Positions 25,744 through 55,518 of a stretch of DNA of 64,000 nucleotides are shown here, in pieces. The notes under the pieces are model-generated. The model was not told the DNA's origin, did not search any database, and worked only from the letters and a program-made list of their open reading frames with translations. Every line of letters begins with the position of its first letter. Position 1 is the first letter of the stretch. Made by a program: the position numbers and the translations under genes. The stretch is from Thiocystis minor (lineage in GTDB: Bacteria > Pseudomonadota > Gammaproteobacteria > Chromatiales > Chromatiaceae): the NCBI RefSeq assembly GCF_016653465.1, contig NZ_NHSQ01000157.1:1-64000 (forward strand), in the 5' to 3' direction.

Positions 25744-25781
25744 AACGACCTACACCAATTAAGATGTAAGTCGTTGTTTTT
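25744..25781. terminator. bidirectional terminator at the left island border
   Basis: AACGACCTACA (25744-25754) and TGTAAGTCGTT (25765-25775) form a stem with one mismatch, followed by GTTTTTATT on the plus strand and TTTTGTTTTT on the minus strand. It lies directly against the 54-bp attachment copy. Before integration, tRNA-Asn would have been followed by this hairpin, so it is probably the original tRNA-Asn terminator. Confidence 0.7.
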
Positions 25782-25830
25782 ATTGGCTCCCTGGGACGGG
25801 CTCGAACCGCCGACCTAGTGATTAACAGTC
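25777..25830. repeat. left attachment site (tRNA-Asn 3' copy)
   Basis: 54 bases identical to 37256-37309. They hold the 3' part of the tRNA-Asn gene (TGGCTCCCTGGGACGGGCTC ... ATTAACAGTC) plus TTTTTAT beyond the CCA end. The identity stops at the anticodon-arm boundary. It marks the distal end of the element inserted in tRNA-Asn. Confidence 0.95.
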
Positions 25831-25942
25831 TCAGGGTACCCCATTTCTGGCCATAAATTGCCGAAACATTGTCACCCGCTCTATCTCCGCTAACCTGCCT
25901 TCAGCGTTGCCTTTTCTGTCGAATGTTATAGACTGTTACTAA

Positions 25943-26076
25943 CGCCGGGTAACAGCCTATACCGCGAAATCCTGTTACCCGGAGCGTTACCCGGAGAGGC
26001 CCCAGTGACAAGCGTTGTTACCCGGAAGCCGATTTTTGGATAAGCGGATGTCCTGATTGGAGAATCTGCGGGTAAC
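25943..26076. promoter_or_regulatory. probable integrase arm-type binding sites
   Basis: GTTACCCGGA(G/A) occurs at 25974, 25986 and 26017, with inverted partial copies (CCGGGTAAC, CGGGTAAC) at about 25945 and 26069. The same word is present at 37198-37208, with a variant at 37186, next to the other attachment site. Repeats confined to the two element ends fit arm sites of a lambda/P4-type integrase. Binding itself is inferred. Confidence 0.6.
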
Positions 26077-26107
26077 AATCATTTTGGTCCGCTAAATGGA
26101 TTGTGCC

Positions 26108-27403
26108 ATGCCTACCACCCAACTGACCGACGCCGCCGTTAGGCGACTCAAGACCCCGACCGACGTTGACCGCATCGAGTATTGGGACACCAAGACGCCG
26201 GGGTTTGGGATTCGTATCTCATCATCCGGTGTTCGTTCGTGGGTGATGCTCCTGCGCATTCTCAGAAACGGCGAATGGGTGCAGCAACGTCTGACGCTCG
26301 GGCGATACCCTGGCGTAACCCTCGCTCAGGCGAGAGAGAAGGCGATCCAGGCCCGAGGTCAAGCGGAGCAAGGGGAAGATCCCGGCGCATCTGTCCGCGC
26401 CAAGAAGACAGCCAAGGTGGACGCGAGCCGCCATACCTTCGCGTTCGTCCGCACTGAGTTTCTGACCAAGTACCGAGGTCGCCAGAATCGCCGACCCGCC
26501 CCGGCCACCCTGGCGCAGATGACGCGCGTTCTGAATGCGGACCTGTTCGCCGATTGGGAGGAGAGACCGCTGGAGAAAGTCACCCGCCGCGACGTGATGG
26601 ATTCGCTGGATGTCTTGATGGAGCGTGGCGCCGAGGTCATGGCCAATCGGACACTGGCCTATCTGGGGATGTTTTTCGGCTGGGCGCTGCATCGCGGGAT
26701 CATCCAGGTTGACCCGACCGAGGGCGTCAAGAAACCCGGCGCCGAGCAATCGCGGGCGCGCGTCCTGTCCTCCGCTGAACTGGCCGCAATCTGGCAGGCT
26801 ATCGCTGACGCGCGTGATGGGGATCTGTTCGCTGCCATCGTTCAGGTTTTGATGCTGACCGGGCAACGCCGCGAGGAAGTGGCCGGAATGCGATGGGCGG
26901 AACTGGACCTTAGCGGCGCCATCTGGACCTTGCCCGAGGGCAACCGGACCAAGAATCACCGCGAGCACATGGTTCCTTTGTCGGCGCCCGTGCTTGCCAT
27001 CCTGCGCGAGCGCCAAGCCGAGCAGGTGGCGATGGGGTTCCGCACCGAATACGTTTTCGTCGCACCGCCGCGCGAGAGAGGATTGGAGTCGAAGCCGTAC
27101 CAGGGGTGGAGCAAGGCCAAGGCCCGCCTAGATGCCCGCGCCAGTATCGCGCCTTGGACCCTGCACGATCTTCGCCGCACCCTGGCAACCCGCATGGCCG
27201 AGGATCTGCGGATTGCCCCGCATGTGATCGAGGCCCTGCTGAATCATGTCTCGGGCACCCGCTCGGGCGTGGCTGGCATCTACAACAGGGCACTGTATCT
27301 GGAAGAACGAAAAGGCGCGCTGGAGACGTGGGCGCGGTATCTAGCCGCTGTTGTCGGCGATGGCGAAGCGGATAACGTGGTGGAGATGCGGGCGAATGGA
27401 TAA
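26108..27403 (+). CDS. int: tyrosine integrase of the tRNA-Asn island
   Basis: 431 residues from the ATG at 26108 (MPTTQLTDAAVRRLK). The N-terminal DUF4102/arm-binding domain (WDTKTPGFGIRIS, LTLGRYPGVTLAQAREKA) is followed by the core-binding and catalytic domains. The latter show TGQRREEVAGMRW (first Arg), LHDLRRTLATRMAE (HxxR) and ALLNHVSG with IYNR supplying the Tyr. This is the P4-type integrase class that uses tRNA 3' ends. It lies about 280 bases inside attL, at the end far from the intact tRNA. It appears intact. Confidence 0.95.
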   Translation: MPTTQLTDAAVRRLKTPTDVDRIEYWDTKTPGFGIRISSSGVRSWVMLLRILRNGEWVQQRLTLGRYPGVTLAQAREKAIQARGQAEQGEDPGASVRAKKTAKVDASRHTFAFVRTEFLTKYRGRQNRRPAPATLAQMTRVLNADLFADWEERPLEKVTRRDVMDSLDVLMERGAEVMANRTLAYLGMFFGWALHRGIIQVDPTEGVKKPGAEQSRARVLSSAELAAIWQAIADARDGDLFAAIVQVLMLTGQRREEVAGMRWAELDLSGAIWTLPEGNRTKNHREHMVPLSAPVLAILRERQAEQVAMGFRTEYVFVAPPRERGLESKPYQGWSKAKARLDARASIAPWTLHDLRRTLATRMAEDLRIAPHVIEALLNHVSGTRSGVAGIYNRALYLEERKGALETWARYLAAVVGDGEADNVVEMRANG

Positions 27404-27941
27404 GAGCGAGTCGGCGCGGATTCAATCGCTCCTGTGTCAGTTTTACGGCATTGGCCCTGAAGAATTGGCGTGGCTGTCACCAGAGGATCAACAGGCGATG
27501 CTCGATTACGTTTTTGATCCGACATCGCCATCGGTCGCCATCCAGGTTATCAATGCGCTGAATGACGCTGAAATCCCGGTTCCTTTATGCCTTCAGTCTT
27601 GGCAAAAGGCGGCGCTATCGGCGCTTTCAGAACAACCCAACATCAAGCGCGAACTCAAGGATGCTATCGACGCACAATCGGAGCAGCCGGGCGTCAAGCG
27701 CAGACTCAAGTCAGAAGCCACTAAGGATAAACAGCGGGATGCTGTTTTTGGGGTGGTCAGGCGGATGTCGTTCGGCGACACAAGGGATGAGGCTATCGAG
27801 AAAGTCGCGGCAGGGATGAATTACAAAATCGACACCCTGTTTGAATACTACCGAAAAAATCCTCAGTGGCGCGCTGCTGCATGGGATTACGTGAGAGACA
27901 ACCCAGAAGGACGCACGCAATTATGGCCAAAAAAGGAATGA
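27396..27941 (+). CDS. island protein of unknown function
   Basis: 181 residues from the ATG at 27396, overlapping the integrase stop by 8 bases. The C-terminal part (EEAIEKVAAGMNYKIDTLFEYYRKNP-like, here DEAIEKVAAGMNYKIDTLFE) resembles a short helical DNA-binding or adaptor segment. The middle has an imperfect internal duplication, SEQPNIKRELKDAIDA and SEQPGVKRRLKSEATK. No family recognised. Coupling to int suggests a role in excision or its control. Confidence 0.65.
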   Translation: MDKSESARIQSLLCQFYGIGPEELAWLSPEDQQAMLDYVFDPTSPSVAIQVINALNDAEIPVPLCLQSWQKAALSALSEQPNIKRELKDAIDAQSEQPGVKRRLKSEATKDKQRDAVFGVVRRMSFGDTRDEAIEKVAAGMNYKIDTLFEYYRKNPQWRAAAWDYVRDNPEGRTQLWPKKE

Positions 27942-28022
27942 ATAAAGGCTAATTCGTTCCCTCTTATCGCGCTCTTTCGTGTTCTAACATGCTGAACATC
28001 CCAATTACGGAGAATGTTCGGA

Positions 28023-28277
28023 ATGCAGACCCACCATACCAGCGCATTCAATAGCGCCCATCAGTCGGCAATCGCCGCTGATCCATTCACCGACGAAACA
28101 CTCGTCACCCAAACCAAGCTGAAAGAGATCGCGGGCGGTATCTCGGACATGACTGTATGGCGCTGGCGCCGTGCTGGCTTGCTGCCTGATCCGGTTTCAA
28201 TTCGCGGGAGGAATTACTGGAAGGTGCGCGTGGTCCGCGCGGCGCTGAATCAGCTTATGGGTGGAGTGGCCGCGTGA
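28023..28277 (+). CDS. AlpA-like helix-turn-helix regulator
   Basis: 84 residues. LVTQTKLKEIAGGISDMTVW, RWRRAGLLPDPVSIRGRNYW and KVRVVRAALN form the winged MerR/AlpA-type DNA-binding unit found next to integrases, where it activates int or acts as excisionase. The ATG at 28023 has GGAG ten bases upstream; the ATG at 28014 is too close to it. Confidence 0.8.
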   Translation: MQTHHTSAFNSAHQSAIAADPFTDETLVTQTKLKEIAGGISDMTVWRWRRAGLLPDPVSIRGRNYWKVRVVRAALNQLMGGVAA

Positions 28278-28459
28278 GCAAATCCACCAACCATTCGCCG
28301 ATCTGGCGCGCGAAGTCAGCACGCCAAAGTCCCACAAATGAAAAACGCCCTGGCGGGGGCGGCCACCAGAGCGTTGCAAAGCGAGAACAATCGAGCGTAG
28401 AGTATTTAGGAGATGGCGCTGATAGGCGCCGTCACCGGGGACGCCAATCCCCGGCATAA
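28274..28459 (+). CDS. short overlapping frame behind the AlpA-like gene
   Basis: A GTG at 28274 overlaps the AlpA-like stop by four bases and opens 61 codons of basic, low-complexity sequence (KRPGGGGHQSVAKREQSS...DRRRHRGRQSPA). The DNA beneath has several short GC-rich inverted segments (GCGCTGATAGGCGCC; CCGGGGACGCCAATCCCCGG). Similar short frames sit here in P4-like elements, where the transcript rather than the peptide can matter. Either reading is uncertain. Confidence 0.35.
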   Translation: MSKSTNHSPIWRAKSARQSPTNEKRPGGGGHQSVAKREQSSVEYLGDGADRRRHRGRQSPA

Positions 28460-28589
28460 AGTCCGACCTTACCGGACACCGACGCGAACAAAAGTATAAC
28501 CCCGGAGCCGTGCGCCTGCACAGTTTCCGACTCGCGTCATCTGCCCGTGAAGGTCGAAACCAACCAAAACACTTTGGAGTTTCGACAGC

Positions 28590-29021
28590 ATGAAAACCAC
28601 CACACGCACGCCAGCCAAGGACCGCGCTCTACTCGCTGATGTCCTGGATCATTCCAGCACGGAGCTATGGCTGCTATCCAGCGCCATCGGCACCGCCGCA
28701 CTACTCGGTGACGACATCGTTTCCGCCATTGAGAGCAACAGCGCCGATTACCCCGAGTCATTCAACACCCGCACCTTGAGCGCGATCCTACGGCTGATAG
28801 ACGCCGGTTCTCATCGTCTCGGGGAGACGTTTGAGCATATCCGCGCGATACAAGCAGGCGAGTTTTCGGCACCCGAGCCGGAGCCGGTACCGCGTCGCGA
28901 GCAAACCCCAGAGGAAAAGGCCAGCCTCATCCGCGAGACCATCGAGCGGTTACAGATGGCGCTGAAAGAGGTCGAGTCTGCCGACCAGGACGCGGCGCCG
29001 ATGGCTGGGGGTACGGAATGA
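28590..29021 (+). CDS. island protein of unknown function
   Basis: 143 residues, mostly alpha-helical (KDRALLADVLDHSSTELWLL ... LIRETIERLQMALKEVESAD) with a Pro/Glu hinge (APEPEPVPRREQTPEEK). Soluble and acidic. It overlaps the next gene by four bases (ATGA), so it opens the tightly packed train that leads to the primase-helicase gene. Upstream, 28460-28589 has no gene and probably holds the promoter. Confidence 0.65.
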   Translation: MKTTTRTPAKDRALLADVLDHSSTELWLLSSAIGTAALLGDDIVSAIESNSADYPESFNTRTLSAILRLIDAGSHRLGETFEHIRAIQAGEFSAPEPEPVPRREQTPEEKASLIRETIERLQMALKEVESADQDAAPMAGGTE

Positions 29022-29200
29022 GCAAGCAAGCGTCGGCGGCACTCAAGCTCATTTCCGACACCACAAAGCTAAGCGTCAAGCTGCTTTACGCTGACCAGTA
29101 TCTTCCTGAATACATGGTCCGCCAACTGATCGCCGATCTTCGTGCGGTTCTTGACCGCTTGGAGCAGAAACTTGACGCGCGCAAGGAGGGCGACCGATGA
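29018..29200 (+). CDS. small island protein
   Basis: 60 residues, a predicted pair of helices (LKLISDTTKLSVKLLYADQY ... VRQLIADLRAVLDRLEQKLD). Starts and ends in four-base overlaps with its neighbours, which supports real translation. Function unknown. Confidence 0.6.
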   Translation: MSKQASAALKLISDTTKLSVKLLYADQYLPEYMVRQLIADLRAVLDRLEQKLDARKEGDR

Positions 29201-29547
29201 GCGCCATCGCCCACATTGACCAGGCGCTGATTGCGAAATGGAAAGCGAGTTGCCGAGTTTTGTTCATGGACGGACGGGATTTGGTTCAGTCTGACGCTGG
29301 TGCAATCTGCGACCACGAAAGATTGACGAGTTCGGTTTTCGAGTCAACGTCGCGCGCTTTCTTTGCCGCGTTTCCTGGCGCAAAAATAAGCGTTCGTTTT
29401 GACCATCGGCATGGTGTTTTTTCGGTCGATTGTGAGGACGACAGCGGAGATCGAGAGTATCGAGCGAACGACGACGGTATGTTTTCTCTCGATAGAGAAA
29501 TCCGAAAACGCCCCCGACTAACCATCGTTCAAGGAGGGATCGCCTGA
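29197..29547 (+). CDS. island protein of unknown function
   Basis: 116 residues, mixed alpha/beta, ending RKRPRLTIVQGGIA. The ATG at 29197 overlaps the preceding stop; the stop at 29547 touches the next ATG. No motif recognised and no membrane segment. Its base composition is visibly lower in GC than the neighbours around 29330-29500. Confidence 0.6.
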   Translation: MSAIAHIDQALIAKWKASCRVLFMDGRDLVQSDAGAICDHERLTSSVFESTSRAFFAAFPGAKISVRFDHRHGVFSVDCEDDSGDREYRANDDGMFSLDREIRKRPRLTIVQGGIA

Positions 29548-29933
29548 TGACCGCCCCCATGATGGGGGCTTCGGCCCCCGCTGATACCGCCCGCGTGCTG
29601 GCTTTCAAGGCAAAGCCTGTCACCCGTCTATCCCGCTCGGAGATGGTCGACCCATCCTTGATTGCCCTCTGGCTGTCCGCCCGTCGGGGTGTCATCTTCG
29701 CGCTTGAAGTTCAGGCCGAAACCGAGGCGGCTATCGTCGCCGCCGTGCTGCGCTCGGTCCAACCCTGCGATGCAGCACTGTCAACCGATACGCTGGACGA
29801 TTACGAAGGTCGGGAGTCCGATCTTTGGCCGCTTGAGATCCACGACCACCGAAGCGGAGTTGCCGTCTGGGTGACAGCGGACGGTCGGGTTCACGACCGC
29901 AAGCCGTCTGCTGAAATGGGGGGGGTCGCCTGA
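29547..29933 (+). CDS. island protein of unknown function
   Basis: 128 residues. A small alpha/beta protein with a repeated Ala/Val-rich middle (AETEAAIVAAVLRSVQPCDA). Stop and next start overlap by one base with the primase-helicase gene, so the two are co-translated. No family recognised. Confidence 0.6.
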   Translation: MTAPMMGASAPADTARVLAFKAKPVTRLSRSEMVDPSLIALWLSARRGVIFALEVQAETEAAIVAAVLRSVQPCDAALSTDTLDDYEGRESDLWPLEIHDHRSGVAVWVTADGRVHDRKPSAEMGGVA

Positions 29934-32900
29934 TGGAAACCTCCCAGCAAAGGGAGACGAAAGCCTCCCACAAGACCGCGAACGCCATCAGTCAGGCCAT
30001 GCAAGCGCCCACTGAACCGGAAGCCGCAACGACTGCCGCCGCGATGATGATAGCCCTCACGGATCGGCACGCCGAATGGCGGATGACACAAACCGCGCTC
30101 GGTGCTGCGATTGAGTATGACGTGGGCAACCTGAACCGCGTCCTCAAAGGCAAGCAGGAGATGAAGGATCAGGCCGCGCTTGCTCGCCTTGTGGCGCTGT
30201 ACGAAGGGCACGCCAAGGTGGCCCTGGAGCCGTCCGGCAAACCAATCGAGTCGGCACCGACCGATTCAGCCCCACAAGCCGATACCAGCACCATAGAGGC
30301 GGTCATCGATCCAATCGAGTACGACTCTAGCGATGATGGCGCAGACGGCGCAGAGGACGCTGTGAGCGTCAGCAATCATGACTTCCTCGCCGCGCTCTTC
30401 GCTGGCATGACCCCAGAGGAATACTTGTGGGCTTGTGAATTTATCGGCCACCCGAAGACCGACGCACAATGGGGCGGACACATGGTATTCGGCACCCTGG
30501 CCGACTATCCAGCGTGCAATACCTATTTCTCGGTGTCGGCACTCAAGCCCGACGCCAGCGGCGCGAGAAAGCGGAGAAAGGAGAATTTCTCGCGTCAGTT
30601 TGTGGTGGTCCTGGACGACTCGCCGCCGCTGCCGGGGATCGATTCGACATGGACCCTGGAAACGAGCCATCCCGAAGGGCGCAGTAATACCCAGGTCGGC
30701 TATCGGCTGGTTGATCCCATTACCGATATGGGCATTGCGTCAAGATTGAACCAGGCGCTCGGGGATGCAGGTCATCTGCCGATCGATACGAGCGGCAACA
30801 ACCCGGTGCGCTACGTCCGCCTGCCTGTTGGCTCGAATACCAAGTATCAGCCAGCGCACCAGCACCGCCTGCTGGCATGGAATCCCGATGGTCGCGTCAC
30901 CCTGGACGAACTGATCGGCGTGCTCGGATTCGACCGCGACGCGATCTTGAACGAGCCAGTACCGCCGCCGAAACCGGAGCAGGTGCGGGCGGATACCTCG
31001 CATCATGACCGATCCGAAGGTGGATTTTTCCGCTCGGTCAAAGACGCCGCGCTTGCCAATATGGACTGTTGGGTGCCTGTCATTTTCCCGTCCGCAAAAC
31101 CGTATCAAGGCGGCTACCGCGTCACGTCCAAATCGCTTGGGCGACCCCACCTGGAAGAGGATCTTTCGCTCCACCCGTCCGGGATCAAGGACCACGGCGA
31201 AGAGCACGGCCTGACGGCAATCGATGTCGTGATGAAGTGGGGGACTCCGGCGCGCACTGCCAACGAGGCGGCGCTATGGCTTTGCAGCCAGATAGGCATT
31301 GATCCGGTATCGCTGGGATGGAACGAGCCGACTCCTGATGCGTTTGACGAGTCCGAGATCCCGGACGATCTGGACCCAGTGCCACCGCGCTCCATACAAG
31401 CCCCGGACGGCTGGAAGCTGACCCGAAGCATGGTCTTCGAGGCCAGGGAAAAGAAAGACGAGACGGAGTATCTCCCCGTCTGCGGGCACCTGCGCGTGAC
31501 AGGTCGGACCAATGGCGCGCATGGCGATTGGGGCCTTGTCCTGGCATTCCGGGACCATGACGGCAAGGAGATCGTTCCTCCTGCAATTCCTGCTGAACGG
31601 CTGCATGAGGACGCCGGAATCCTCGCCCGCGAACTGGCGCGACAGGGACTGAAGATTATCCCCGGCAAGGAAAAACGCCTGCTGTCCTATTTGGCATCGT
31701 GGGAGACGGACGTTCGTATCCTATCCGCCAAACGTCTAGGCTGGCTGGAAGATCCGACCGGCGCGCTGTCGTTCGTCATGCCGGATCGGGTTATCACTCG
31801 CGACGGCACCAAGCAGGTGGTTTTCCAGCCAGACCGCTACTCGCCGACCGTCCGCACGGTGCACGCATCCGGCACCCTGGCGCAGTGGCAAATCAAGGTC
31901 GCCGCGCCGGTCTGTCGTCATCGTCCGATGTTGTTCGCACTGTGCGCCGGGCTGACTCCCGCCTTGCTCGCCTTCGCCGAAGCTGGCGATTCGTTCGTCA
32001 TCCATTTTTGGGGCAAGACCAGCCGTGGAAAAACCACGGTCGGGCAGATTTCAGCATCACCATGGGGTTGCGCTGCCGATCCCAACGACGCGCCGAGCTT
32101 GACCTTTATCCGTCGATGGAACGTGACAGGGAACGGCCTGGAAGGTCTGGCCGAGTCGCATTCGGATATGCCGCTGGTCCTGGATGAGTTGGGCAGTTCG
32201 ACCGTTGGCGATATTCGACCGCTGATCTATCAGCTTGCCGGAGGGCAGGGAAAGACCGCGCTCAATTCTGCGCGGGAAATGAAGGAGCCGAGAAGCTGGC
32301 GAACCATCGCGATCAGTACCGGCGAACTCTCTCTCCATGCGCGGATGTCCGACCCAGACGGCGACGGCACTCGGACCCGCAACGTCAAGGGCGGCCTGAC
32401 GCATCGCGCGCTGGATGTCGAGATTGCCGATATTGCTGGAGCCTCGCCAGCGTCCGAACGGGAGTCGGTTGTGTCCGGCGTCAAGGTCGCCTGCGCACGC
32501 ACCTACGGCACGGCTGGCCCGGAACTAGTGCGGTTGATTGCTGAACAATTCAGTAGCGCCTCAGCCGCGCGTCAGTACGTCAGGGATCAGGTTGCGGTGG
32601 TGACCGCTTCACTGATCGCTGACCAGTCAATTCCGGCTGAAACGGCGCGGGCTGTTCGTCGCTTCGCCCTGATTGCGGTCGCTGGAGAATTCGCGGCCCA
32701 TGCCGGGCTGATCCCGGTCGAGGCGTCCGAAGTCCGCGCGGCAGTCAAGGAGGTGGTGACCGCTTGGCTCGGTGCATCGGCGGAAACTGACGAGGATCGC
32801 ATCGTCTCTAGTGTGCGGGCATTCATCCTGAAACATGAATCGCGGTTCCAGCGCATCAATGAGCCGGAGCCGGAGACGCGAACTGGTCGATACGGGAACG

Positions 32901-33457
32901 AGTACCCGGCACCAACACGGGCTTCAGAGCCGGTCAGGGATCGCGCGGGGTATGTCGATCATGCGAAAGGACACTGGTATTTCACTGACGCCGGATTGGT
33001 CGAGGCCGCACCAGGGAACGATAAGACCACGATTGCAAGGACGCTAAAAAAAGCGGGGTATCTCTCCACCAGTGAGGGAAAACTTCAGGAGCGCGTCACC
33101 ATTGGGGCGGATCGCCCGCGCATGTATTCGGTGAAGACATCCATCCTTGATGGAGAAAAAAGCGGGGAATCCTCAGAAACAGGTGGACATGGTGGACAAG
33201 GTGGACAACCCCAGCAAACAAGCGGGCTAGAGCCTGTCCACCCGGAAAAAGGACAAGGTGGACAAGGTGGACAAGGTGGACGGGACGCAATGGACGACAC
33301 AACTGCTGTCCACCCTGTCCACCTGTCCACTAGCGAAGGTGGACAGGAACAAAACCGCGCAGTTGCTGGCGCTGTCCACCCTGTCCACCCCGTCCACCCG
33401 GAAAACAAAGATCCTGAGTTTTTTTCGGTAGACGACAACGGGGAGGTCGCGATATGA
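29933..33457 (+). CDS. replication protein: primase-like N-terminus and DUF927 helicase
   Basis: 1,174 residues. It opens with an HTH-like segment (MTQTALGAAIEYDVGNLNRV). A primase-polymerase-like region follows (PACNTYFSVSALKPDASG, FVVVLDDSPPLPG, PVRYVRLPVGS). The DUF927 ATPase domain begins near residue 480; its P-loop-like site is HFWGKTSRGKTTVG, and later landmarks are PLVLDELGSS and RSWRTIAISTGEL. Such proteins initiate replication of integrative elements and phage satellites. The last 90 residues are low-complexity (GGQGGQ and VHPVHPVHP) because the DNA carries a 9-bp repeat array. It is the largest island gene and the likely replication initiator. Confidence 0.8.
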   Translation: METSQQRETKASHKTANAISQAMQAPTEPEAATTAAAMMIALTDRHAEWRMTQTALGAAIEYDVGNLNRVLKGKQEMKDQAALARLVALYEGHAKVALEPSGKPIESAPTDSAPQADTSTIEAVIDPIEYDSSDDGADGAEDAVSVSNHDFLAALFAGMTPEEYLWACEFIGHPKTDAQWGGHMVFGTLADYPACNTYFSVSALKPDASGARKRRKENFSRQFVVVLDDSPPLPGIDSTWTLETSHPEGRSNTQVGYRLVDPITDMGIASRLNQALGDAGHLPIDTSGNNPVRYVRLPVGSNTKYQPAHQHRLLAWNPDGRVTLDELIGVLGFDRDAILNEPVPPPKPEQVRADTSHHDRSEGGFFRSVKDAALANMDCWVPVIFPSAKPYQGGYRVTSKSLGRPHLEEDLSLHPSGIKDHGEEHGLTAIDVVMKWGTPARTANEAALWLCSQIGIDPVSLGWNEPTPDAFDESEIPDDLDPVPPRSIQAPDGWKLTRSMVFEAREKKDETEYLPVCGHLRVTGRTNGAHGDWGLVLAFRDHDGKEIVPPAIPAERLHEDAGILARELARQGLKIIPGKEKRLLSYLASWETDVRILSAKRLGWLEDPTGALSFVMPDRVITRDGTKQVVFQPDRYSPTVRTVHASGTLAQWQIKVAAPVCRHRPMLFALCAGLTPALLAFAEAGDSFVIHFWGKTSRGKTTVGQISASPWGCAADPNDAPSLTFIRRWNVTGNGLEGLAESHSDMPLVLDELGSSTVGDIRPLIYQLAGGQGKTALNSAREMKEPRSWRTIAISTGELSLHARMSDPDGDGTRTRNVKGGLTHRALDVEIADIAGASPASERESVVSGVKVACARTYGTAGPELVRLIAEQFSSASAARQYVRDQVAVVTASLIADQSIPAETARAVRRFALIAVAGEFAAHAGLIPVEASEVRAAVKEVVTAWLGASAETDEDRIVSSVRAFILKHESRFQRINEPEPETRTGRYGNEYPAPTRASEPVRDRAGYVDHAKGHWYFTDAGLVEAAPGNDKTTIARTLKKAGYLSTSEGKLQERVTIGADRPRMYSVKTSILDGEKSGESSETGGHGGQGGQPQQTSGLEPVHPEKGQGGQGGQGGRDAMDDTTAVHPVHLSTSEGGQEQNRAVAGAVHPVHPVHPENKDPEFFSVDDNGEVAI
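33182..33398. repeat. iteron-like array of GGTGGACAA 9-mers in both orientations
   Basis: GGTGGAC occurs at 33182, 33191, 33200, 33257, 33266, 33275 and 33338. Its complement GTCCACC occurs at 33236, 33308, 33317, 33374, 33383 and 33392, plus one degenerate copy at 33325. Within clusters the spacing is exactly 9 bases. Forward and inverted clusters alternate. The array lies in the 3' end of the replication gene, the usual place for an initiator to find its own origin. Origin function is inferred. Confidence 0.8.
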
Positions 33458-34182
33458 CCGCCGCCGCACTGCTGTCCGACCTATCCGGCGCTGGCGTCAC
33501 TGTCCGCATTGACGACGCTGGACAACTCAAGGCATCCGGCGATCAAGCTGCCCTGGCGCGGCTGCTGCCCCAGATCCGTGAGCACAAGGCCGAACTGATG
33601 GCCATGCTCGCAGCCAACGATCCAGCGCCTCTTCACCGACTGTTCCTCGTCACCCGTCCCACCGGCGAGCAATTCACCACGAGCCGCAACCCACCTATCC
33701 CGCTGACCGAGGCCCAGGCGGATTACCCCGACTGCACCGTCGAGGTTCAGCCGGACCTGCCACCTGCCGCTGCACTCACTGACAACGACAAGTCGCTGGC
33801 GCTGGCGCTGCTGGATCACTGGCAGGAGGATGACCCGGTCATCCGCCGCGGCTGGCTGGACGGGTTACGCGATCCCGAGCGGCTGGCAGGTATGCGAGCA
33901 ATGGCGCATGCGCTCGGTGTGGCGGTCGCCGTGACACTCCCGCCTGACGACAGGCGCACCTGTCGGCAATGCCGGAATCTTTCCCGCAACGGTCGATGTC
34001 AGGCCGCCGAAGCTGGACGGCTACCGTTGACAGGCACTCGCTACGAACCCGATCAGAACGCGCTACAGCGGTGCGTGGGCTATGCACCTGGAGCGGATGA
34101 CCCAGACAGGCGACCCGGTAAAGAACGGTATCCAGGTTTGCATGCGCGGCTGTGGGCCATGGCTGGGAGGGCAGGACGATGA
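33454..34182 (+). CDS. TubC-N-like and zinc-motif island protein
   Basis: 242 residues. The first 55 (AALLSDLSGAGVTVRIDDAG ... LLPQIREHKAELMAML) match the TubC N-terminal docking-like domain often found in island proteins. The C-terminal part has a cysteine set, CRQCRNLSRNGRCQAA then LQRCVGYAP, typical of a small zinc-binding unit. It starts four bases inside the replication gene and ends in an ATGA with the next gene. Function unknown; the docking-like domain suggests binding to a partner in the same operon. Confidence 0.7.
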   Translation: MTAAALLSDLSGAGVTVRIDDAGQLKASGDQAALARLLPQIREHKAELMAMLAANDPAPLHRLFLVTRPTGEQFTTSRNPPIPLTEAQADYPDCTVEVQPDLPPAAALTDNDKSLALALLDHWQEDDPVIRRGWLDGLRDPERLAGMRAMAHALGVAVAVTLPPDDRRTCRQCRNLSRNGRCQAAEAGRLPLTGTRYEPDQNALQRCVGYAPGADDPDRRPGKERYPGLHARLWAMAGRAGR

Positions 34183-34490
34183 AGGTCTGTACCCATTGCG
34201 GCGAATCATTCGAGCCGAAATTCCCAACGGCGAAGTTGTGCTACTCGTGCTGGTTGCTACGCGAAGCCATGCTGGAGGAATACCCCGAGTTGGAACGCGA
34301 GGTGCGAACGCTTCGACTGGCTTTGGAACGCAAGGCACCGCCTGCCATCCCGCCCGACATCCTGAAAATCCTGATCGGCTGCTGTCATCCCGACAAGCAC
34401 GGCAACAGCAAATCGAGCAATACGGCAACCCGCTGGCTACTGGAGCAGCGCACGAGCGCCACCCAATTCAAGGAGACATCCCCATGGTGA
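34179..34490 (+). CDS. zinc-ribbon and J-domain-like small protein
   Basis: 103 residues from the ATG at 34179. An N-terminal CTHCGESFEPKFPTAKLCYSCW forms a four-cysteine zinc ribbon. The C-terminal half (ILKILIGCCHPDKHGNSKSS) holds an HPD tripeptide in a helix-HPD-helix setting like a minimal J-domain. If real, it could recruit a Hsp70 to the replication complex, as phage J-proteins do. This is inference from the tripeptide and its setting. Confidence 0.65.
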   Translation: MKVCTHCGESFEPKFPTAKLCYSCWLLREAMLEEYPELEREVRTLRLALERKAPPAIPPDILKILIGCCHPDKHGNSKSSNTATRWLLEQRTSATQFKETSPW

Positions 34491-34837
34491 CCACCGACCG
34501 CTTGACCCAACTGCGCCTGATCGCCGAGCAGAACCGCCCGCCGCCGATCTGGGTACCCGTCACACCCGCCGCGGTCATCGAGGGTGAAATCATCGCATCC
34601 ACAAGACCGATGCGTGGGAGCGAGTACGTTTTCACGGTCGAGCCGAACCAGATCGACATCCGCCAGATGTCCGGCGAGATAGTCACGGTGCAGATCTTCG
34701 GGCACATGGCGCGCGACTTGGCGCTCGCCGACGCCGGTATCGGCTCGCTCGTGCATATCGAGTATCTGGGGAAATTTCCAGGCACCTATGGGCGCGGAAA
34801 ATACCGGCGCTTTGCGATTGCGGTGTTGAACGACTGA
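34484..34837 (+). CDS. island protein of unknown function (beta-rich)
   Basis: 117 residues from the ATG at 34484, overlapping the previous stop. The alternating hydrophobic strands (VIEGEIIASTRPMRGSEYVF, EIVTVQIFGHMARDL, GSLVHIEYLGKFPGTYGRGK) suggest an OB-like fold, which would fit a single-strand DNA-binding helper beside a primase. No sequence motif proves this. Confidence 0.6.
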   Translation: MVTTDRLTQLRLIAEQNRPPPIWVPVTPAAVIEGEIIASTRPMRGSEYVFTVEPNQIDIRQMSGEIVTVQIFGHMARDLALADAGIGSLVHIEYLGKFPGTYGRGKYRRFAIAVLND

Positions 34838-34891
34838 CAGCCACCCAGGCGCGCGTCACCGTGGCGCGCGTCCAACCCCAGGAGACGCCCA

Positions 34892-34987
34892 ATGGACGAA
34901 CCCGAATACCTCATCACCGGACCCGGCGCGGATCGCCGACAGCGACCCCCTTCGAGCATCGGCTGGCAACAAAACCCGCATCGGTAG
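34892..34987 (+). CDS. possible 31-residue peptide
   Basis: An ATG behind CCAGGAGACGCCC (a strong ribosome site) opens MDEPEYLITGPGADRRQRPP to a TAG at 34987. The site is good but the frame is short and unsupported by family. The following 34988-35164 has no gene except the operator-like repeats. Confidence 0.35.
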   Translation: MDEPEYLITGPGADRRQRPPSSIGWQQNPHR

Positions 34988-35091
34988 ATGTACGCTCTAC
35001 CGAACAGACCGCCGCAAGCATCGCCGTTGCTGGCTTTGCTGAAAACAGGATTCAGAGTTACCCCCAAAGTTGCCCCCGAGTAGCGACGACT

Positions 35092-35426
35092 GCACTACCG
35101 ACGCACTACGCCATTACACCATTCTGCTATACTGATGCACTACACCCGTAAACAAGCGTAGCGCATGAAGCCAACTTCCTTTCGACTGCCAGCCGATGCG
35201 CTGGATCGCATCCGCCGATTGGCCCAGCCCGGCGAATCCCAGGCATCCGTCATCTTGCGTGGTTTGCTCGCCCTGGAAGGCTCGCCGCCGCCCATGAGCA
35301 TGGAAGCATTGGCGTCTCGTCTTGAAGCCGTGGAGAGCCGCCTAGACGACCTGGAAGGTGGTAGCGCGCCAGTAGTGCAGACAGCCAGCAAGAAACCGAC
35401 TGACACCCGTAGCGCGCTTGTAGTGC
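35092..35426. promoter_or_regulatory. GCACTAC repeat set around the ribbon-helix-helix gene
   Basis: GCACTAC occurs at 35092, 35103 and 35137 just upstream of the gene at 35165. Its complement GTAGTGC occurs at 35372 and 35420 inside the gene. An apparent -10 region (CTATACTGAT, about 35126) lies between the second and third copies. Multiple short sites over a promoter fit autoregulation by a small DNA-binding protein. Binding is inferred. Confidence 0.55.
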
Positions 35427-35563
35427 GACGGGACAAAGCCGAGCGCGACCGTCTAATCCTGGATCTGGCTGCAACTGGCATGAAGAACCGTGCCATCGGT
35501 CGGCAACTCGGGATACCCGAGTCAACGGTGAGATCCATCATCGAGCGTCACGCGAAACCATGA
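35165..35563 (+). CDS. ribbon-helix-helix / HTH DNA-binding protein
   Basis: 132 residues. The first 40 (KPTSFRLPADALDRIRRLAQ, then SQASVILRGLLAL) resemble a CopG/MetJ-type ribbon-helix-helix unit. A coiled-coil-like stretch follows, and the last 35 (ILDLAATGMKNRAIGRQLGI, then PESTVRSIIERH) form a helix-turn-helix. Two DNA-binding units in one chain, with repeated GCACTAC sites in its promoter, suggest an island regulator. It overlaps the next gene by four bases. Confidence 0.7.
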   Translation: MKPTSFRLPADALDRIRRLAQPGESQASVILRGLLALEGSPPPMSMEALASRLEAVESRLDDLEGGSAPVVQTASKKPTDTRSALVVRRDKAERDRLILDLAATGMKNRAIGRQLGIPESTVRSIIERHAKP

Positions 35564-35781
35564 CCGAACCGCTCTCCCAGGCCGAAACCGCTGACGCGCT
35601 CGGAGTTAGCCCCGGTCGCGTCTCACAACTCGAACAGGCGGCACTGAGAAAATGCCGGAAATGGCTCGCGGAGCACTGCATCAGCCCTGCTGATTTACCG
35701 GACGGCACACCAATCGACCCGCCGACTGGCGCGGTCATTCACTCCGAAATACCCGAGGAACACAGCCATGATTCAAACTGA
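35560..35781 (+). CDS. small helix-turn-helix protein
   Basis: 73 residues. LSQAETADALGVSPGRVSQL followed by EQAALRKCRKWL is the sigma-region-4-like HTH with an R-V-S-Q recognition helix. Coupled at both ends to its neighbours (ATGA upstream, 14-base overlap downstream). Likely a second island regulator. Confidence 0.7.
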   Translation: MTEPLSQAETADALGVSPGRVSQLEQAALRKCRKWLAEHCISPADLPDGTPIDPPTGAVIHSEIPEEHSHDSN

Positions 35782-36274
35782 AGCACCGATGAAGATCTAC
35801 GCCGAAGAACAGCTTGCCGCGCATGGATGGGTCGTTGTTGACTTGTCCATCGCCCAAACGATGCGCCCGAGCTTGTGGAACTCGCATTGTGGCGACGACG
35901 AAGCTGCCAGATTGCGACTGATCGCCGAGGCGCAACGCGACGGACAGCTTTTCAACGCGACAATCAAGATCGGCCAGCCCGGCGACAAGCCTAAAATCGT
36001 GGTAGACACAACGGGCATCGTGCGCCGGGTAATGCCGGAAGATCAGCGGACGGTTCAAATCATCGCCCGAAGCAAAGCCAAGCTGGCCGAACGGCTTGGG
36101 TGGATGGGCTTTCGCGTCGAGTCAGTCAAGGCATGGGTAGAACCCGAAGCCGAGCCGGTTCCCGATGCCAAGCCCGAGCCGATGCAGACCGGGTATCCGT
36201 TCGGTGGAGGCGCGAAGGTTGTCCATTGCCCGGCGGCTGCTGACGCCCCGCGCGTGGTGGATGCAAGTCGATAG
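35768..36274 (+). CDS. island protein of unknown function
   Basis: 168 residues, ATG at 35768 within the end of the previous gene; a second ATG eight codons on is possible. The central strand-helix pattern (QLFNATIKIGQPGDKPKIVV ... TVQIIARSKAKLAERLGW) ends in a Pro/Glu-rich spacer (EPEAEPVPDAKPEPM). No family recognised. Confidence 0.6.
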   Translation: MIQTEAPMKIYAEEQLAAHGWVVVDLSIAQTMRPSLWNSHCGDDEAARLRLIAEAQRDGQLFNATIKIGQPGDKPKIVVDTTGIVRRVMPEDQRTVQIIARSKAKLAERLGWMGFRVESVKAWVEPEAEPVPDAKPEPMQTGYPFGGGAKVVHCPAAADAPRVVDASR

Positions 36275-36337
36275 GCATCGTCAATCATAATCGCCGATAC
36301 TATTGATATTCTGAATCTTGCAGGAGGGATACAGGCG

Positions 36338-36757
36338 ATGGCGAAGTTCAAACCCGGCCAGTCCGGCAACCCGGCGGGGAAACGTCCGGGCACCGTCTGC
36401 AAGATGACGAAGTTGCGCCAGAGCATCGAGGCGGACCTGCCTGAAATCCTGAGCGCGATGGTCACGGCAGCGAAGCAGGGCGATACGACAGCGGCAAAGC
36501 TGGTGATGGATCGCGTGCTACCCGCGCTCCGACCCACCGATCAGGCCGTCAGTCTCCCCCTGGCCGGTGATGATCTGGCGGCAGATGGCCGGGCAATCAT
36601 CCAGGCCACCGGCAACGCCGACATCACGCCGGAGCAGGCAAGCCGTCTACTGGCCGGGCTTGGCAGTCTGGCGCGAGTGGTCGAAGTCGGTGAACTCATC
36701 AAACGAATCGAAAGCCTGGAGGCAAAGTATGGCGAGTCAGATCGAAAACCGAGTTGA
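36338..36757 (+). CDS. DUF5681-domain protein (phage-like)
   Basis: 139 residues. The opening FKPGQSGNPAGKRPGT is the DUF5681 signature found in phage and island proteins, often beside terminase genes. A helical region (QGDTTAAKLVMDRVLPALRP) and a C-terminal coiled coil (ELIKRIESLEAKYGES) follow. No terminase is present in this element, so packaging would need a helper. It overlaps the next gene. Confidence 0.75.
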   Translation: MAKFKPGQSGNPAGKRPGTVCKMTKLRQSIEADLPEILSAMVTAAKQGDTTAAKLVMDRVLPALRPTDQAVSLPLAGDDLAADGRAIIQATGNADITPEQASRLLAGLGSLARVVEVGELIKRIESLEAKYGESDRKPS

Positions 36758-36899
36758 GCGATTGGAAAACGCGATGGGCACGGGAGCGGCGCGCGTTGTC
36801 GTGCTCTTCGAGGATGACAACGAGCCAGCGATTGAAGGCGCGACCATCATCAAGGTCCGGTTCGTCGAGGGAGGTCGCGATGCTACGACGCAGAGTTGA
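36729..36899 (+). CDS. small island protein
   Basis: 56 residues from the ATG at 36729 (MASQIENRVERLENAM). A short coiled coil then a beta-rich tail (ARVVVLFEDDNEPAIEGATI). Overlaps both neighbours, a sign of a translated gene. Function unknown. Confidence 0.5.
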   Translation: MASQIENRVERLENAMGTGAARVVVLFEDDNEPAIEGATIIKVRFVEGGRDATTQS

Positions 36900-37077
36900 G
36901 AGTCTGGAGCGACAGGCCCAGCCAGAGGATACGTTGCCGAGCTTGGCGCAAGCCCTGCTGGCCGCGCGTGGTCAGCCGTTGGGTCCGGTGTCGGAAGCCT
37001 TGACGCCAGAGATTGCAGCGGCGAGAGAGCGAGTGCATCAGATGCGAGCCGGAGCAGAGTGCAAGCCTGCACCGTGA
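36880..37077 (+). CDS. small island protein, last gene of the element
   Basis: 65 residues from the ATG at 36880 (MLRRRVESLERQAQPEDTLP), helical. Its first residues repeat the RVE(R/S)LE pattern of the preceding protein, so the two may be related. A strong terminator follows at 37106. Confidence 0.5.
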   Translation: MLRRRVESLERQAQPEDTLPSLAQALLAARGQPLGPVSEALTPEIAAARERVHQMRAGAECKPAP

Positions 37078-37105
37078 CCAGCCAGACACCCGACGACCGA
37101 CAGAC

Positions 37106-37129
37106 ACCCGCCCGCTTGGCGGGTTTTTT
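37106..37129 (+). terminator. rho-independent terminator of the island operon
   Basis: ACCCGCC CGCTT GGCGGGT followed directly by TTTTT. A 7-bp GC-rich stem, 5-base loop and U-run, about 30 bases after the last island gene. Confidence 0.9.
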
Positions 37130-37225
37130 GTGGGGGGTGCGGGACACCGCGTAACAGTCGAAAACAGGTCAAACGCTGTTAATTTGTTACCCCCAGCGTT
37201 ACCCGGAAGGCGATTAGGCAAGAAA

Positions 37226-37254
37226 AAGGGGTTAGCCGATGAAGCTAACCCCTT
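37226..37254 (-). terminator. terminator now serving tRNA-Asn
   Basis: AAGGGGTTAGC and GCTAACCCCTT form an 11-bp perfect stem with a short loop. On the minus strand it is followed by TTTCTTG, on the plus strand by ATTTTTATT. It lies inside the island, just beyond attR, in the position where a tRNA-Asn transcript would end. Confidence 0.8.
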
Positions 37255-37255
37255 A

Positions 37256-37309
37256 TTTTTATTGGCTCCCTGGGACGGGCTCGAACCGCCGACCTAGTGA
37301 TTAACAGTC
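37256..37309. repeat. right attachment site (within tRNA-Asn)
   Basis: 54 bases identical to 25777-25830, covering the 3' half of tRNA-Asn and a few bases beyond it. With the left copy it defines an element of about 11.5 kb. Confidence 0.95.
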
Positions 37310-37338
37310 ACCCGCTCTACCGACTGAGCTACCAGGGA
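37263..37338 (-). tRNA. tRNA-Asn (GTT)
   Basis: The minus strand gives a 76-base cloverleaf. The acceptor is TCCCTGG / CCAGGGA, then G-CCA. The D arm is GCTCAGTCGGTAGAGC, the anticodon arm GTGACTGTTAATCAC with anticodon GTT, and the T arm GGCGG TTCGAGC CCGTC. The CCA end is encoded. The gene is intact on the right side of the island because the element brought an identical 3' half. Confidence 0.97.
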
Positions 37339-55083: not shown

Positions 55084-55518
55084 ATGATGAAAGCCATGAA
55101 AATTGCCGGTCTTGCAGCGGTCGTCGGTCTGGCCAGTGCCTCCTTTACCGCGAGCGCCTGGTGGGGCGGCCCCGGTGGCTACGGGAACGACGGCCGTGGT
55201 TACGGCAACGGCATGATGGACAACATGGGCGACATGTTCGGTGACGGCACCGGCGACTTCAACATGAACATGAGCGGCAGCGGTCGCAGTCAGGGTCGTG
55301 GCTACGGTCGCGGCTATGGCCGTGGCGATGGTTATGGCTATGGCAGTGGCGATGGCTACGGCGCGCCTTATGGTTACGGCGCTCCCTATGGCTATGGCGC
55401 CCCCTATGGCTACGGCGGTGCTCCTGGCTATGGCGCCCCTTATGGCTATGGCGCACCCTATGGCGCAATGCCTCCGCAGATGCCAGTCCAGCCTCCCCAG
55501 GCCGCGCCAGCTCAATAA
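55084..55518 (+). CDS. sulfur globule protein
   Basis: 144 residues. A signal peptide ([20 protein letters not shown], cut after ASA) precedes a mature protein rich in Gly, Tyr and Asn. It opens [18 protein letters not shown], has the [20 protein letters not shown] block, and then repeats of G-Y-G-A-P-Y. This is the structural envelope protein class of periplasmic sulfur globules in purple sulfur bacteria (SgpA/B/C type). The tail is Pro/Gln-rich ([17 protein letters not shown]). Which Sgp paralogue it is cannot be decided. The GGCTATGGCGCCCCTTATGG-type DNA repeats encode the GYGAPY units. Confidence 0.85.

Follow-up and report, generated by a model that had tools for sequence, protein, structure and literature searches.

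The window, by which we mean the whole stretch of 64,000 nucleotides that was analysed, contains an integrated element of ~11.5 kb. The element is bounded by an exact 54-bp repeat of the 3′ part of tRNA-Asn (25777-37309), and it carries a tyrosine integrase, an excisionase-like protein, a DUF927 gene and small ORFs. Its main features are as follows.

25777..25830, + strand: attL, 54-bp exact copy of the 3′ part of tRNA-Asn
26096..27403, + strand: tyrosine integrase of the element
28014..28277, + strand: excisionase-like small protein (phrog_66, E 4e-6)
29933..33457, + strand: putative initiator gene, 1174 aa, DUF927 helicase
32777..33154, + strand: C-terminal part of the initiator (~residues 949-1074), interpreted as a winged-helix domain and presumed to read the iterons
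33155..33454, + strand: read-through tail, 100 codons over the putative origin
33454..34182, + strand: downstream ORF, 242 aa, whose ATG overlaps the TGA of the initiator gene (ATGA)
37256..37309, + strand: attR, the matching 54 bp at tRNA-Asn (37263-37338, minus strand)

Scanning of 14 ORFs of the element gave no match to capsid, terminase or interference families, and the downstream ORF matches TubC_N only weakly, at a score under the curated cut-off. No plasmid matched 26500-39000 in a Megablast search. Close relatives are present in named genomes of Thiocystis, Thiocapsa, Thiodictyon and Marichromatium. Just inside attL and near attR (25946-26077 and 37185-37205), the words GTTACCCG / CGGGTAAC are repeated, and these are probably arm sites of the integrase.

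The last part of the DUF927 ORF (29933-33457) is occupied by an array of short repeats at 33182-33398. A preliminary description of this DNA had reported seven GGTGGAC and seven GTCCACC units, one of them degenerate, in the 3′ end of the gene, where they are read as GGQ and VHP. Both the count and the location were confirmed: there are seven GGTGGAC (starting at 33182, 33191, 33200, 33257, 33266, 33275 and 33338), six GTCCACC (33236, 33308, 33317, 33374, 33383 and 33392) and one degenerate GTCCACT at 33325. The strict 9-base spacing that had also been described holds inside the clusters but not overall, since the degenerate unit lies 8 bases after its neighbour; it is also out of the codon phase common to the other 13 of the 14 units. 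With GGTGGAC as + and GTCCACC as -, the array is a mirror image about an axis at ~33290 (+++ 36 - 21 +++ / -- 21 + 36 ---), in which 12 sites are paired and one is unpaired, the degenerate site standing besides. Its parts, named after the interpretation developed below, are these.

33152..33181: left flank, AT-richer (GC 0.467), candidate melting region
33182..33206, + strand: putative left half-origin, far cluster, three GGTGGAC at 9-bp steps
33236..33242, - strand: putative left half-origin, lone inverted unit GTCCACC
33257..33281, + strand: putative left half-origin, near cluster, three GGTGGAC
33282..33307: dyad centre, GC 0.577 and not AT-rich, with the axis (~33290) taken from the paired sites
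33308..33331, - strand: putative right half-origin, near cluster, two GTCCACC and the degenerate GTCCACT (33325)
33338..33344, + strand: putative right half-origin, lone inverted unit GGTGGAC
33374..33398, - strand: putative right half-origin, far cluster, three GTCCACC
33399..33428: right flank, AT-richer (GC 0.400), candidate melting region

For reference, the GC content of the gene body is 0.612. Among 2000 first-order Markov simulations of the gene, the densest stretch of 217 bp had 2 such 7-mers, against 13 exact units in the window. Thus, a chance origin of the array is excluded.

Conservation of the array was surveyed at 179 loci with a homologue of the DUF927 protein. Loci in which the C-terminus was aligned and at least 450 bp lay beyond it were kept, with four copies of the window left out, and the 160 loci kept form 102 clusters at 90% identity. 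A blind dyad finder learned the repeat at each locus, and its threshold was the maximum score (4.0) of 102 shuffles and 98 control stretches within these same genes. The dyad score exceeded every shuffle and control in 46 of the 102 clusters, including that of the window. Forty of the 46 scored at least 6; the six below this value include L187, whose motif is a low-complexity T/A sequence. Among the 56 clusters that failed the threshold, some have a half array only, for example ++ 24 - 31 +++ (L025 and L031), and some show nothing clear. A spacing-shuffle test gave p<0.05 in 31 of the 102 clusters. The unit sequences vary widely among the homologues (GGTGGACA, CCTGGACA, GGGGGACA, CCGGGACA, GGTGTTAG, GGGTGACA, GGTAACAG, GGGAACAG). 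Of the 46 passing clusters, 37 have the entire array beyond the stop codon, seven have it entirely within the ORF, and in two it spans the stop. Its halves were classed as facing inward, with the near cluster inside, in 27 clusters and outward in three, and 16, including L170, are unclassified; the label 'div' given to three loci is unreliable, because L166, without one site, is inward-facing by eye and L187 is of low complexity. Distant relatives share the geometry of the array but differ in the sequence of its units.

Further arrays were noted. Scanning of viral contigs for three GGTGGAC in a row gave 11 matches, most of them with those three units only, and two (L004 and L005) have up to 7 GGTGGAC in 400 bp. 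Another two-way array, with 12 copies of ACGACCT, is found on the viral contigs L003 (9778-10125) and L011 (8036-8383), and it looks like the same kind of origin. The 6.4-kb Nitrosoglobus plasmid pTAO100 (L198:4274-4463) has a mirror-image array, + 41 - 22 ++ 20 -- 22 + 41 --, which follows the DUF927 gene at a distance of ~640 bp and precedes a repM gene. This plasmid possibly combines two replicons; since it also has repM, it is no proof that the DUF927 gene drives replication there.

The 27 inward-facing loci served for an analysis of spacing and base composition. Of 126 steps between neighbouring units of a cluster, 103 are 9 bp and 12 are 10 bp. The distances from far to near cluster in the 54 half-sites fall into groups of 54-57 (32), 63-66 (12), 74-78 (8) and 84-87 bp (2), so that they vary as if by single helix turns, as a description of a sample in which the two halves of one locus are not independent because the finder demands mirror symmetry. 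A Fourier sum on the cluster distances was best near 10 bp (0.64) with broad neighbours and defines no single period. The centre of these arrays is AT-richer than the gene (GC 0.51 vs 0.605, p 0.0004), and the outer 30 bp on both sides are more AT-rich than the centre (GC 0.42 and 0.41, p 1.5e-8 each). Since the AT-richest DNA is outside the inward-facing arrays, it is the far cluster that borders AT-rich DNA in both the inward and the outward layouts. A perfect match to the IHF consensus was found in 4 of the 54 gaps between far cluster and single site (three loci: L051, L090 and L029), against 0.2% in shuffles. An IHF bend in the far gap of the window was considered and dropped, as the window has no perfect match.

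DUF927 is the sole Pfam family matched by the protein of the window. A profile of eight homologues matched two PDB entries, 8tch (E 6e-36), which is the initiator Rep of SaPIbov1, and 5dgk (E 2e-31), which is Cch of SCCmec, and comparison of the predicted fold with the same two structures gave Z scores of 17.4 and 17.9, respectively. The helicase model is of moderate confidence (mean pLDDT 71.7), and one AAA+ stretch in it is poorly predicted. SaPIbov1 Rep and Cch are thus the nearest solved relatives of the protein by both sequence and fold, and this kinship extends over the helicase and the C-terminal domain. The C-terminal part of the model also resembles a relaxosome accessory protein of pCW3 solved with oriT DNA (5vfx/5vfy, Z 10.1), and the match to 5vfx covers 90 residues at 2.7 A. 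We take this accessory protein (5vfx) to be TcpK, a winged helix. The N-terminal part has what we assume to be a PrimPol-like look; Pfam and PDB gave no significant match for this part, and, like the model of it (pLDDT 43.7), they speak neither for nor against a primase.

A test for co-variation of iteron and C-terminal domain covered the 33 of the 46 clusters with a dyad score of at least 7, and in these iteron similarity tracks identity of the C-terminal domain when helicase identity is allowed for (partial r 0.26, permutation p 0.001), while the helicase keeps a correlation of its own with the iteron (partial 0.23). The signal is thus modest. Among the loci whose gene reads through the array, the window and L044 have in common GGTGGACA and RPRMYSVK in the C-terminal domain, and L046 and L045 have in common CCGGGACA and RPWLYVVK.

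Reading of the gene through the array is confined to one group of the tree with seven clusters (one change; support 84/99), six of them from Chromatiaceae and one, L170, from another family of the class. As these loci form one clade, their common frame and phase are not independent events. Over 631 codons of the eight tail loci there is no stop in frame, against 14 and 12 in the other two frames, and the sites in the modal codon phase number 77 of 93, compared with 167 of 285 at loci that lack the tail. In all eight, the tail stop overlaps or abuts the start of another ORF (164-242 aa), a count made in the tail loci alone. The peptides of the tail differ widely (GGQ/VHP, PGQ/VQ, PGQ/VPAVP). 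In 21 pairs from seven of the eight loci (L170 left out), pN/pS is 0.69-1.06 in the tail and 0.21-0.39 in the helicase, and pS is lower in the tail than in the helicase in 18 of the 21; these pairs are not independent, and the repeats align loosely. It had been supposed that the DNA is what is selected and that the protein part is neutral. The low synonymous change together with a pN/pS near 1 argues for the former, and orthologues do keep the array geometry while the peptide drifts; a peptide kept over scrambled 9-mers was not seen among the tail-clade loci compared. The peptide looks neutral, then, whereas the open reading frame, which is free of stops, does not. These comparisons indicate that DNA, not peptide, is what is kept, and the GGQ/VHP repeat looks like a by-product. 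The simplest reading of the open frame would be that translation must run on to the next gene.

A relative in the genome G005 lacks most of the gene and has stops in the remaining frame, and it keeps a mirror array of 13 GGTGGAC sites ('+++ 37 - 20 +++ 36 -- 19 + 37 ---'), which may be an origin that has outlived its initiator. At this locus (L208:4250-4540; G005:C1:2912157-2912534), the end of the DUF927 gene lies beside an ORF that looks transposase-like by eye. In the tail clade, the far spacers (33208-33233 and 33346-33372 in the window) resemble CCCAGCAACCACGCGGG, and the copies in the two halves are in inverted order in some species and direct in others. A spacer element CAGCAACC-GCGGG was discarded as a candidate, because the pattern was found only in L048 among the loci of all 102 clusters; looser copies were seen by eye in the tail clade.

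Known mobile elements offer close parallels. SaPI Rep is reported to use its C-terminal domain to recognise an origin of iterons that lies immediately 3′ of its gene (PMC7581432). A rep-ori segment of an E. coli PICI enabled plasmid replication (PMC6092414), and every PICI origin is stated to hold an AT-rich region between two sets of iterons (Fig. 2 legend of the same paper). The window shares with SaPI/PICI elements a DUF927-type initiator helicase with a C-terminal DNA-binding domain (predicted in the window) that matches SaPIbov1 Rep (8tch, E 6e-36 and Z 17.4), an integrase (26096-27403) with duplication of the attachment site (54-bp repeats at tRNA-Asn), and an iteron array at the 3′ side of the gene, made of two mirror-image site sets, which is inside the gene here and after its stop in 37 of the 46 clusters. 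The window differs in that the AT-richer DNA lies outside the halves and the gene runs through the putative origin. No AT-rich DNA lies between its two iteron sets (centre GC 0.577), and partly for this reason the array is not filed as a PICI. It is very probably an origin that would work like a SaPI/PICI rep-ori with a differing layout. Outward layouts were read by eye in a handful of records, where orientation between such different repeats is a matter of judgement. PT1028, which we take to be a SaPI-family element, has at the 3′ side of its DUF927 homologue a left half of 3 sites, 23 bp, an inverted single, 44 bp and 2 sites, and its right half mirrors the left with fewer sites detected. 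Its halves face outward around an 88-bp centre of GC 0.19, whereas those of the window face inward around a ~26-bp centre of GC 0.577. The halves on a Skermanella plasmid also face outward, around a 97-bp centre (GC 0.42, flanks 0.60), and the single of the left half is not inverted in the match found.

The comparison with P4 made in the preliminary description is a fair one for site length (GGTGAACA) and half-array spacing. P4 has iterons of similar length (GGTGAACA) in both directions, and its ori1 reads +++ 22 - 43 ++ in the P4 record, which is the size of one half-origin. The crr lies just 3′ of the alpha gene and reads -- 43 + 18 + 14 - twice, a pattern that differs in detail. A literature search on the crr iterons added nothing useful. 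The sites of P4 are split between ori1 and crr, ~4.7 kb apart, whereas the window has one compact array with the unit GGTGGACA, and neither a split arrangement nor GGTGAACA-type iterons were found in it. P4 alpha, we assume, belongs to another helicase family than DUF927, and with DUF927 as the sole Pfam match the protein of the window gave no sign of an alpha-type primase-helicase. In SCCmec, Cch (5dgk) is a DUF927 homologue. Cch2 is reported to bind, via its C-terminal domain, iterons that immediately follow its gene, but it is of another helicase family and its iterons are three short direct repeats; no mirror-image array of many sites is described in the accessible text of that paper (PMC7581432).

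All in all, 33182-33398 is most probably the replication origin of the ~11.5-kb integrative element, composed of two mirror half-origins and read by the element's own initiator, with the read-through tail as a by-product. The preliminary description had proposed an origin bound by the encoded protein, and this idea gains support from the geometry kept in orthologues and from the kinship to SaPIbov1 Rep and Cch. In each half-origin, a far cluster of three 9-bp iterons would be followed after ~36 bp by an inverted iteron and after another ~21 bp by the near cluster, which has two or three iterons. The DUF927 helicase of the SaPIbov1-Rep/Cch kind, encoded upstream, would read these iterons via its C-terminal winged helix, and one helicase ring would probably be assembled on each half. 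Melting of the AT-rich DNA adjoining the far clusters may follow, and then replication of the excised element would start. In the tail clade, the gene would have lost its old stop codon and now extends across the putative origin as far as the next ORF's start; ribosomes may thereby stay on the message over this stretch, with the GGQ/VHP tail as a by-product. The analysis shows the array, its geometry and conservation, the open frame, the kinship of the protein and the ends of the element. Binding, ring loading, melting, replication, excision and translational coupling are all steps that we infer.

Other functions of the array were considered. It might encode a functional repeat-protein tail, in which GGQ/VHP is selected as peptide and the regularity of the DNA follows. 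Such a tail would account for the frame being open in all eight tail-clade loci compared and for the modal codon phase (77/93 vs 167/285), but it can hardly be reconciled with a pN/pS near 1, with peptides as different as GGQ/VHP, PGQ/VQ and PGQ/VPAVP, or with the finding that 37 of the 46 clusters have the whole array downstream of the stop codon; we rejected it on the pN/pS values and on the non-coding position in relatives. The selected thing could also be a cruciform or an RNA hairpin, such as a terminator, an attenuator or a rolling-circle hairpin. Indeed, the 223-nt stretch folds far more stably than 200 shuffles (z -8.9 as DNA and -10.3 as RNA), its arms (33182-33242 and 33338-33398) are 77% complementary, and in the window, as in roughly half of the 27 inward-facing loci altogether, the far spacers score as inverted copies beyond the 95% level of shuffles. 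However, such folding comes as a matter of course from mirror-image site arrays, and the distances from far to near cluster are in groups ~10 bp apart, as is expected of protein on duplex DNA. In addition, the far spacers of L048 are direct, not inverted, copies, and L045 leans likewise. The stable hairpins suggested as an alternative in the preliminary description are weakened by such relatives, and with a strong fold but mixed spacer pairing a hairpin was dropped as very improbable.

Iteron arrays of other plasmids can serve in incompatibility and copy-number control or in autoregulation. An array of this kind, or an operator of the initiator gene, rather than a replication start, is accordingly conceivable at 33182-33398, though very improbable. 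The element has no second array of the unit, only a lone GGTGGAC at 26416, and an operator is expected upstream of the gene. Moreover, relatives of the protein are reported to use the same place as an origin (PMC6092414, PMC7581432).

Beyond the origin proposed for the window, a more general scheme may be put forward tentatively, although it is somewhat less likely to be right than wrong. In this scheme the half-origin would be a module common to DUF927-type and P4-type elements, made of AT-rich DNA, about three iterons, an inverted iteron and two or three further iterons, some six sites that would serve one helicase ring. The module could be assembled in three ways. In the SaPI type the halves would face outward around one melted centre, in the window and 26 further protein clusters they would face inward with a melting zone on either outer side, and in P4 they would be split, with ori1 far from crr. 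Reader domain and iteron would change together, giving each lineage a new compatibility group, and the spacing would move in helical turns. In one lineage, the initiator gene would have grown through the origin, tying translation of the operon to it. A literature search, which did not extend to the SaPI origin papers of 2007 and 2012, turned up in the accessible texts neither an origin read through by its initiator gene nor an inward-facing layout.

A geometry kept while the sequence changes provides a ready set of natural initiator-origin pairs for studies of DNA reading, melting and loading by a self-loading helicase. The inward layout with AT-rich DNA outside, which departs from the published PICI layout, allows one to ask by experiment whether the half-site or the centre sets the polarity of the rings. 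The read-through gene, for its part, clearly exemplifies a reading frame that stays open although the peptide it encodes can drift freely.

Two further repeats were noted in the same genome. A small group of two GTCCACC and one GGTGGAC is present elsewhere in it (L220:3119-3245; G000:C63). In the window itself, positions 55297-55464 hold tandem repeats with periods of 12 to 54 bp that are rich in TATGGC/TACGGC.
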